A stretch of DNA of 64,000 nucleotides, from NCBI RefSeq assembly GCF_030409835.1, contig NZ_JAUFQO010000004.1:558001-622000 (forward strand). Direction: 5' to 3'. Shown in pieces: positions 52,200 to 60,819 of the stretch. Positions within the stretch are counted from its first letter, which is position 1. Each line of letters begins with the position of its first letter. The notes beneath the pieces are model-generated. The model ran no database searches and was not told the origin of the DNA. It worked only from the letters and a program-made list of their open reading frames with translations. The DNA is from Lutimonas halocynthiae (GTDB lineage Bacteria > Bacteroidota > Bacteroidia > Flavobacteriales > Flavobacteriaceae). A program made the position numbers and the translations under genes.

Positions 52200-52233
52200 G
52201 AAACAAATTCTTATTGTTCATGCAAAACCCTGC

Positions 52234-59928: not shown

Positions 59929-60099
59929 TCGGGTAGATCATTTTATTGCTGCCCGGTGAAGGTACTAAAAAATACAAAATGTCAAAAAACTAAATTTTTA
60001 ACTTTCTGAAATAGATTCCGTTTTCGTCTTTATACTTCTACTAATTGAAAATAAGGGCTTCCTCTTTAAGAGGAATTAAAACTGATGCTATCAATTCAT
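59929..60099. other. Spacer between lacI-type gene and the repeat array
   Basis: This holds the upstream region of the LacI-type gene and a short hairpin, TTCCTCTT-T-AAGAGGAA at 60059-60075, preceding the first array unit. No gene is seen. Confidence 0.55.
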
Positions 60100-60131
60100 A
60101 AAAAAAGCTTCTCGAAATGAGAAGCTTTTTT
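60100..60131 (-). terminator. Array hairpin A1
   Basis: Perfect AAAGCTTCTC / GAGAAGCTTT stem with a short loop and T/A runs on both sides, so it can terminate in either direction. It lies just 3' (minus strand) of repeat element R1. Confidence 0.7.
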
Positions 60132-60136
60132 GTTGG

Positions 60137-60215
60137 TGCGGGCAGGATGGAGCGTTAAGAAAATGTCTAGTAGACATTTTTAGCGAACAGGCCAGATGGC
60201 GCATGGATCGCCCGC
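60137..60215 (-). repeat. tRNA-ended repeat element R1 (79 nt)
   Basis: On the minus strand it begins GCGGGCGATCC and ends TGCCCGCA. These are the same 7-bp acceptor ends and 3' A as the tRNA-Leu at 60738-60819, but the interior is unrelated to a tRNA. The interior has a perfect 9-bp hairpin, AAAATGTCT / AGACATTTT, with loop AGT (others have CGC). It is followed by hairpin A1. Confidence 0.7.
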
Positions 60216-60250
60216 TCTTTCGCTTTATAAAGCCCATGATTTTAATGTAT

Positions 60251-60282
60251 AAAAAAAGCCCTTCGATATGAAGAGCTTCTTT
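60251..60282 (-). terminator. Array hairpin B2
   Basis: AAGCcCTTC / GAAGaGCTT stem with one mismatch, flanked by A7/T runs; a different sequence from the A-type hairpins but at the same position relative to the next element. Confidence 0.65.
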
Positions 60283-60283
60283 G

Positions 60284-60361
60284 TGCGGGCAGGACGGAGC
60301 GTAAAGAAAATGTCTCGCAGACATTTTTAGTGACGGGCCAGATGGCGCTCGGATCGCCCGC
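60284..60361 (-). repeat. tRNA-ended repeat element R2 (78 nt)
   Basis: Same architecture as R1: GCGGGCGATCC start, 9-bp AAAATGTCT/AGACATTTT hairpin with CGC loop, and TGCCCGCA end on the minus strand. It is followed 3' by hairpin B2. Confidence 0.7.
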
Positions 60362-60390
60362 CAAACTAGTTTCCTTTATCTTGATAAAAT

Positions 60391-60422
60391 AAAAAAAGCT
60401 TCTCGAAATGAGAAGCTTTTTT
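60391..60422 (-). terminator. Array hairpin A3
   Basis: Identical in stem to A1 (AAAGCTTCTC / GAGAAGCTTT) with flanking A7 and T runs, located 291 bp from A1. Confidence 0.7.
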
Positions 60423-60427
60423 ATTGG

Positions 60428-60525
60428 TGCGGGCAGGACGGAACGTTAGAAAATGTCTCGCAGACATTTTTAGTGAACCTGCCTGCCGGAAGGCAGGCGG
60501 GCCAGATGGCGCATGGATCGCCCGC
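60428..60525 (-). repeat. tRNA-ended repeat element R3 (98 nt) with inserted palindrome
   Basis: Like R1 and R2 at both ends and in the 9-bp hairpin, but it carries about 20 extra nt containing GCCTGCC-GGAA-GGCAGGC (60481-60498). This is a perfect 7-bp stem with a GGAA tetraloop and accounts for the extra length. Confidence 0.7.
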
Positions 60526-60560
60526 TACTTAGATTAATAAAACACATAAATATAATGTAT

Positions 60561-60592
60561 AAAAAAAGCCCTTCGATATGAAGAGCTTCTTT
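60561..60592 (-). terminator. Array hairpin B4
   Basis: Sequence matches B2 exactly over the hairpin and lies 310 bp from it; it follows element R4 on the minus strand. Confidence 0.65.
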
Positions 60593-60593
60593 G

Positions 60594-60671
60594 TGCGGGC
60601 AGGACGGAACGTAAAGAAAATGTCTCGCAGACATTTTTAGTGACGGGCCAGATAGCGCCAGGATCGCCCGC
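60594..60671 (-). repeat. tRNA-ended repeat element R4 (78 nt), nearest to tRNA-Leu
   Basis: Differs from R2 at only a few bases and shares its flank (CCAAACYAGTTTCC to the right). Ends and hairpin are as in the other copies. It is separated from the real tRNA by hairpin A5. Confidence 0.7.
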
Positions 60672-60700
60672 CAAACCAGTTTCCTTTATCTTCATAAAAT

Positions 60701-60730
60701 AAAAAAAGCTTCTCTAAATGAGAAGCTTTT
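60701..60730 (-). terminator. Terminator of tRNA-Leu (array hairpin A5)
   Basis: AAGCTTCTC / GAGAAGCTT stem (loop TAAAT) located 7 nt 3' of the tRNA on the minus strand, followed by a run of T in that direction. Same family as hairpins A1 and A3. Confidence 0.8.
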
Positions 60731-60737
60731 AAGTTGG

Positions 60738-60819
60738 TGCGGGCGAAAGGACTCGAACCTTCACACCGTGAGGCACTAGATCCTAAGTCTAGCGTGTCTA
60801 CCAATTTCACCACGCCCGC
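60738..60819 (-). tRNA. tRNA-Leu (anticodon UAG)
   Basis: The minus strand reads GCGGGCGTGGTGAAATTGG from 60819. It has a 7-bp acceptor stem (GCGGGCG/CGCCCGC), discriminator A, anticodon loop CTTAGGA on a CTAGA/TCTAG stem (anticodon TAG), a variable arm (TGCCTCACGGTGT), and T-arm AAGGTTCGAGTCCTT. CCA is not encoded. The 82-nt length with a class II variable arm agrees with tRNA-Leu. It has its own promoter and terminator. Confidence 0.95.

Follow-up and report, generated by a model that had tools for sequence, protein, structure and literature searches.

The four tRNA-ended units beside tRNA-Leu(UAG) are probably tandem copies of a short, nonautonomous mobile palindromic element of 66 nt, here designated E. 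E is a dispersed, multicopy, imperfect hairpin whose stems covary; it is enriched at tRNA genes, and some of its sites have a repeat of the target sequence, which then ends exactly at the 5′ end of E. Movement of E is suggested by its dispersal together with the comparison of filled and empty sites.

The array at tRNA-Leu(UAG) and the hairpin of E

In the window (i.e., the whole stretch of DNA analyzed, 64,000 nt), sequence reading and a repeat finder delimited a four-unit array at positions 60098 to 60744, adjacent to tRNA-Leu(UAG) (Table 1). The units, R1 to R4, contain four plus-strand copies of the structured element, antisense to the tRNA, each abutted by an 8- to 11-nt copy of the tRNA 3′ end and followed by an inverted GCCCGC. 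The tRNA-like acceptor ends of R1 to R4 arise because the tRNA-end copy and its inverted copy flank E. The same analyses bore out the layout given in the initial annotation, namely, four units bounded on the minus strand by GCGGGCG...TGCCCGCA, an invariant stem of 9 bp (AAAATGTCT/AGACATTTT) closing a loop of AGT in R1 or CGC in R2 to R4, and terminator-like hairpins of alternating types A and B, with periods of 291 and 310 bp from A to A and of 310 bp from B to B. The repeat finder also returned a 245-nt direct repeat with 92% identity between R1-R2 and R3-R4, which identifies these as a duplicated pair. A second palindrome (CCTGCCTGCC/GGCAGGCAGG) is found twice in the window, at position 52229 and inside R3, and sequences resembling it are also present in other fetched loci.

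Table 1. Features of the array and of the adjoining tRNA gene (window coordinates)
Feature	Position	Strand	Evidence
Element E copy R1 (66 nt)	60144..60209	+	Covariance model match, 88.6 bits
Element E copy R2	60291..60355	+	Covariance model match, 77.4 bits
Element E copy R3, split by a 20-nt palindrome insert at 60478-60497	60435..60519	+	Covariance model match, 49.9 bits at 60435-60499; remainder by eye
Element E copy R4	60601..60665	+	Covariance model match, 73.8 bits
tRNA-Leu 3′ end copy (GCCCGCACCAA on minus strand), abuts R1	60133..60143	-	Sequence reading and direct-repeat test
tRNA-Leu 3′ end copy (GCCCGCAC), abuts R2	60283..60290	-	Sequence reading and direct-repeat test
tRNA-Leu 3′ end copy, abuts R3	60424..60434	-	Sequence reading and direct-repeat test
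tRNA-Leu 3′ end copy, abuts R4	60593..60600	-	Sequence reading
Inverted target copy GCCCGC, after R1	60210..60215	+	Sequence reading
Inverted target copy GCCCGC, after R2	60356..60361	+	Sequence reading
Inverted target copy GCCCGC, after R3	60520..60525	+	Sequence reading
Inverted target copy GCCCGC, after R4	60666..60671	+	Sequence reading
Terminator-like hairpin type A, distal	60101..60131	.	Sequence reading and repeat finder
Terminator-like hairpin type B	60252..60282	.	Sequence reading and repeat finder
Terminator-like hairpin type A	60392..60422	.	Sequence reading and repeat finder
Terminator-like hairpin type B	60562..60592	.	Sequence reading and repeat finder
Terminator-like hairpin type A, adjoins tRNA-Leu	60702..60730	.	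Sequence reading and repeat finder
tRNA-Leu(UAG), intact, insertion target	60735..60819	-	ARAGORN; Rfam RF00005, 59.9 bits

E does not correspond to a tRNA or a tRNA-like RNA. In the window, ARAGORN returned the real tRNA-Leu as the sole tRNA, and neither a cloverleaf (ARAGORN) nor a tRNA model match (Rfam) was obtained over R1 to R4. At the gathering score, no Rfam family covered E, either in the window or in any of six further loci; with E-values of up to 10 over the array, all matches besides tRNA scored far below the gathering scores and none was Flavo-1 (RF01705), the family to which the initial annotation had suggested the units might belong.

When folded as minus-strand RNA, R1 and R3 were more stable than all of 200 shuffled sequences (z scores of -3.7 and -3.8), and for R4 (z of -1.9) 7 of 200 shuffles were as good; R2, for which the folded stretch stopped short of the 3′ stem arm, gave a z of -1.2 (22 of 200 shuffles as good). 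An alignment of 27 copies defines the E hairpin as G-C, G-C, a small loop, C-G, a variable pair, an internal loop, CGU(U/A)A/UAGCG, and AAAAUGUCU-NNN-AGACAUUUU, with about 15 nt at the 3′ end of E falling outside the hairpin. The freely varying pair is GC in 10 copies, AU in 8, UA in 5, CG in 2, and unpaired in 2, and the innermost stem letters likewise vary in step (ATGTCT/AGACAT, ATGTCC/GGACAT, ATGTAC/GTACAT, AAGGTTT/AAACCTT). Overall, 93.6% of the cells in this alignment are paired and 36 are double-change cells, neither value being reached by any of 500 shuffles; one of the 14 pairs of the main stem (that of columns 13 and 39) was unpaired in 14 of the 27 copies. A model-fitted alignment of 84 distinct rows gave 95.1% paired and 170 double-change cells (reached by 0 of 500 shuffles) and a covariation score of 0.344, versus 0.114 for shuffled alignments; ten pairs showed double change, a number attained in 4 of 500 shuffles, and the number of further pair types was attained in 29 of 500. 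The stems thus covary in both alignments, which refutes one of the signs of inert local duplication listed together in the initial annotation, namely, stems not conserved by covariation in other genomes. A second, far GCC/GGC hairpin past the main stem was weak and not clearly above shuffles.

G-T cells exceeded A-C cells in the E alignment (104 versus 11, with 79 of the 104 coming from one column pair), which indicates that the folding strand is most likely the plus strand of the window, i.e., that antisense to tRNA-Leu. Protein coding was considered and rejected: one frame is open only if a covarying base is not T, and since that base is T in 5 of the 27 aligned copies and is base-paired, coding of E looks like a by-product.

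Genomic distribution of E

When the own genome was searched with the R1-R2 block, the interior turned up at five other places, where it lacks the tRNA ends. The covariance model recognized nine E copies in this genome, five of them outside the array, and a loop-tolerant pattern with up to two mismatches also gave nine; ten rows obtained with three mismatches comprised six reverse-strand readings of these copies and four that look like background. A nucleotide search detected E in 14 of 60 genomes, the own genome included. With the covariance model, E was identified at an E-value of ≤1e-3 in 181 of 397 family genomes, representing 136 of 237 genera, while the other 216 gave no match at this threshold; an order-level search at ≤1e-5 was positive for 26 of 395 genomes, nine of them outside the family. 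The exact E pattern occurred in named genomes in at least 80 stretches, all from Bacteroidota among the matches listed, including Myroides, Flavobacterium, Aquimarina, Winogradskyella, Maribacter, Mesonia, and Galbibacter; these names point to the Flavobacteriaceae as the family that widely carries E. No E was detected in viral contigs by the exact pattern or in plasmid and phage collections by BLAST. None of the literature matches listed was recognized as describing E, and a literature search for DUF6090 (see below) gave no match. E is a structured, apparently mobile repeat that is present in nearly half of the family genomes searched and matches no Rfam family.

These data bear on the possibility that the array arose merely by local duplication of a tRNA-Leu region that had been damaged and is inert. 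The 92% likeness of R1-R2 and R3-R4 would be in keeping with it, but E also occupies unrelated sites of the own genome and is present in the 181 family genomes, with covarying stems. Inert duplication is refuted as the origin of E and highly improbable as an explanation of the array, accounting solely for the doubling from two to four units.

The copies of E are markedly concentrated near tRNA genes. Thirty of 245 had a tRNA or tmRNA gene at a distance of no more than 200 nt, compared to 4 of 527 shifted control positions at the same loci. The enrichment was observed in each of two sets tested against this control, i.e., in 20 of 162 copies (Fisher P = 4e-10) of a first set that includes some loci fetched for their arrays and in 10 of 83 copies (P = 8e-7) of a second set chosen by sequence alone. 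Eleven of the 245 copies lie no more than 3 nt from a tRNA end, either the sense 3′ ends of tRNA-Ile, -Ala, and -Pro or the antisense 5′ end of tRNA-Pro, and others are found inside antisense tRNA 3′ ends, 8 to 22 nt in (Leu, Gln, Met, and Asn); half of the tRNA-near copies (15 of 30) lie 3′ of the tRNA in antisense orientation. For a minority of copies, element ends do match tRNA ends elsewhere, a lack of which the initial annotation would have taken as a sign of inert duplication.

Other copies occupy a variety of sites. E adjoins 5S rRNA and is also found at the ends of yidD genes (that of locus L087 being called yidD by similarity alone). In genome G222 (L089 and L169 in G222:C8), E lies inside the 36-nt repeats of an array resembling CRISPR, its place within the repeat being identical in the eight copies listed; in G065, it lies inside a REP-like repeat, again in the eight copies listed; and in G018 (L035, L044, L051, and L055), it is carried by a MITE-like repeat with the ends AGGGCTTGTTACAAAATAA, two of the four copies being at contig ends. 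An open reading frame of G566 (L193:5397-6341), which gave no Pfam match and has motifs that we take to be RHS-like, reads through E in frame. At four own-genome sites (L003, L004, L005, and L007), E ends about 15 nt before the start codon of a DUF6090-like gene of the same direction; of the two DUF6090-like genes scanned against Pfam, that of L005 exceeds the PF19578 cutoff and one relative from G013 matches only below it. E is also found at the start of argB-like AA_kinase genes in G186 and in an Aquimarina record, and the target sequence recurs in a second Aquimarina record.

Two further arrangements were seen. G011 and G013 (L104 and L177) carry tandem arrays of DUF6090-like genes, with E before some of them and a copy of the gene start 5′ of E. 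G662 (L187 and L188) carries an island with E between mostly co-oriented small genes, as well as simple repeats in which five E copies follow one another, mostly at a spacing of 90 nt.

The strong covariation, the G-U pairs on one strand, and the positions before DUF6090-like genes and at argB-like gene starts could also be explained if E were a functional cis-acting or small RNA (a leader, a processing site, or an antisense RNA of tRNAs) under selection in place. We regard this as unlikely, given that E is also encountered in CRISPR-like, MITE-like, and REP-like repeats, in an open reading frame, and at tRNA ends of either strand and that more than half of the family genomes gave no match at the threshold used. 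Judging from the freely varying sequence upstream, E moreover does not seem to carry a promoter with it.

Target repeats and possible routes of insertion

Of 134 distinct copies in the first set, 37 had the sequence immediately 5′ of E again on its 3′ side, compared to 0 of 134 after shuffling (gap of 0 to 7 nt, repeat within 260 nt 3′ of E), many of the 37 coming from arrays (G222, G408, G325, and the window) and hence not being independent. In the second set, examined with slightly different settings (gap of 0 to 3 nt, within 300 nt), such repeats accompanied 7 of 73 copies, against 1 of 73 for shuffled and none for other-locus sequences. The shortest of the repeats measures 10 nt and the longest, which covers whole array units, 245 nt, and the gap after E also varies; repeats of such variable length are unlike the footprint of a normal transposase, which would be of fixed size.

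Filled and empty versions of the tRNA-Leu site could be compared among 17 loci from the genus with a readable tRNA-Leu 3′ flank, two of which carry E (the own genome and G008). At the empty sites of G011, G013, and G017, CAAAAAAGCCCTTC...GAAGGGCTTTTTTT comes after the tRNA. At the filled site of G008, the order is tRNA, a new terminator, E, and then GCCCGCACAGAAAAGCCCTTC...GAAGGGCTTTTTT, corresponding to a copy of the tRNA end plus, outward, the native-type terminator. Because the insert comes with its own tRNA 3′ end copy and terminator, the tRNA is left whole and the native-type terminator lies outward. As read from this one locus, the tRNA-Leu insert supplies a replacement tRNA end. G006 (L209) and G015 (L207) have another palindromic body behind tRNA-Leu, measuring about 60 nt and more in G015, in the same layout as E, i.e., inverted target copy, body, and tRNA 3′-end copy.

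The tRNA-like ends of R1 to R4 are best read as borrowed target sequence that probably has no tRNA function; coming from the insertion site, they are no marker of a new kind of tRNA. Of the two readings offered in the initial annotation, a mobile element copying tRNA 3′ ends is near to what the evidence supports, since a dispersed repeat forms the interior and the target has been copied into the tRNA ends. The other, small structured RNAs with tRNA-like ends, was not sustained, as copies of E elsewhere lack tRNA ends and different tRNAs contribute different ends. Odd arrays next to tRNA genes would be accounted for by an element that is enriched there and can import copies of gene ends.

A probable sequence of events is that E would be recognized as a folded single strand, that antisense to tRNA-Leu, by a host or trans-acting recombinase or nuclease, and would join structured or palindromic targets at their base. 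The four-unit array would then have been built by repeated insertion and a single duplication of a block of two units. None of the candidate enzymes sought tracks E: Y1 transposase matches were equally frequent in E-rich and E-less genomes (7 of 16 each) and absent from the own genome; reverse transcriptase (RVT_1) was found in 5 of 16 E-rich and 3 of 16 E-less genomes; and an integron integrase over the TIGR02249 cutoff was found in 0 of 32 genomes, all 32 having weaker tyrosine recombinase matches, so that a recombinase may still be involved. Widely spaced E-T pairs, sought for an autonomous partner, consisted of tandem DUF6090 genes and larger repeats, with no mobility gene among the open reading frames annotated.

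At some sites, the tail that directly follows E can pair with the target strand on both sides of the insertion point, over 19/19 and 14/14 nt at yidD genes, 14/14 nt at 5S rRNA, and 12/12 nt at tRNA-Gln, and imperfectly at tRNA-Met and tRNA-Leu. By shuffling, complementarity had P < 0.05 in 12 of 33 first-set sites, several from the same loci; four of the 37 sites (window 60144 and 60291, L170 2529, and L144) were left out because another E comes next. The corresponding figure for the second set was 0 of 6 sites (L259 left out for the same reason). In the window, the tails consist of only the 6-nt GCCCGC, and the copy at 60435, the sole one testable against native flank, gave a P of 0.06. The sites with a 12- to 19-nt target-complementary tail (two yidD genes and those at 5S rRNA, tRNA-Gln, tRNA-Met, and tRNA-Leu) look recent. 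It is conceivable, if improbable, that E is the scaffold of a nucleic acid-guided insertion system, in which the 12- to 19-nt tail would guide E, in the form of RNA or single-stranded DNA, to tRNA ends and other structured targets, with tandem reinsertion and no enzyme of its own. Such functional target-complementary tails, if real, would amount to a new guided-insertion principle.

Comparison with known systems

The attC sites of integrons are imperfect, bulged hairpins in which the fold is conserved and the letters vary, and they are often antisense behind genes; they carry an R-box pair of consensus RYYYAAC...GTTRRRY. E shares with attC the imperfect folded hairpin with conserved bulges. 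It could in principle be the folded single-strand recombination site of an integron-like cassette system, with the tRNA units as gene-less cassettes. Such a system would fit the freely varying stem letters, the antisense location of half of the tRNA-near copies on the tRNA 3′ side, the E sites between genes in G662, a unit of E plus gene at the start of a neighboring gene in G013, and the replacement gene ends carried by the inserts. Identity with attC was nevertheless rejected, the R-box pair being found in 0 of 245 copies (E plus 8 nt on each side, both strands). No integron integrase exceeded the cutoff in the 32 genomes, integron cassettes are not known to have long target repeats, and the tandem DUF6090 genes may have arisen by independent duplication. 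Taken together, we consider an integron-like origin doubtful and favor a nonautonomous mobile palindrome.

Integrative elements that target tRNA genes bring a copy of the tRNA 3′ end, thereby keeping the tRNA whole, and the tRNA-Leu insert resembles them in its imported 3′ end copy; the units in the window differ in being only about 140 to 170 bp long and in containing no integrase gene. A MITE, which would have terminal inverted repeats and a target duplication of constant length, was also rejected, because of the nonhairpin 3′ end of E and because its target repeats vary widely in length.

Among the structured motifs listed in PMC2864571, Flavo-1 appears as a candidate for Bacteroidetes, and the GUCCY-hairpin, of uncertain RNA status and with no Rfam number in the table, is given for Bacteroidetes and Proteobacteria. 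The GUCCY-hairpin could overlap the core hairpin of E.

Palindromic repeats of the GTAG and CGTC types have been described, the latter also in Bacteroidetes and, as presented in PMC3733652, without a dedicated transposase. The GTAG REPs and REPINs with RAYT transposases are, like E, hairpin repeats in many copies (PMC3733652). GTAG was found at the 5′ junction of E in just 4 of 245 copies, and an association with RAYT (Y1) transposases was dismissed on the distribution reported above. The Rickettsia palindromic elements and CGTC REPs, as described in PMC3733652, are like E short, palindromic, and dispersed, with no known dedicated transposase. Of the 245 copies, 33 had CGTC or GACG near the 5′ junction, where the tag is not conserved, and assignment to this group was rejected. 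E differs from them in its 66-nt length with internal loops, in its enrichment at tRNA genes, and in that it can carry copied target ends. It provides a concrete system for studying how palindromic repeats without a transposase move.
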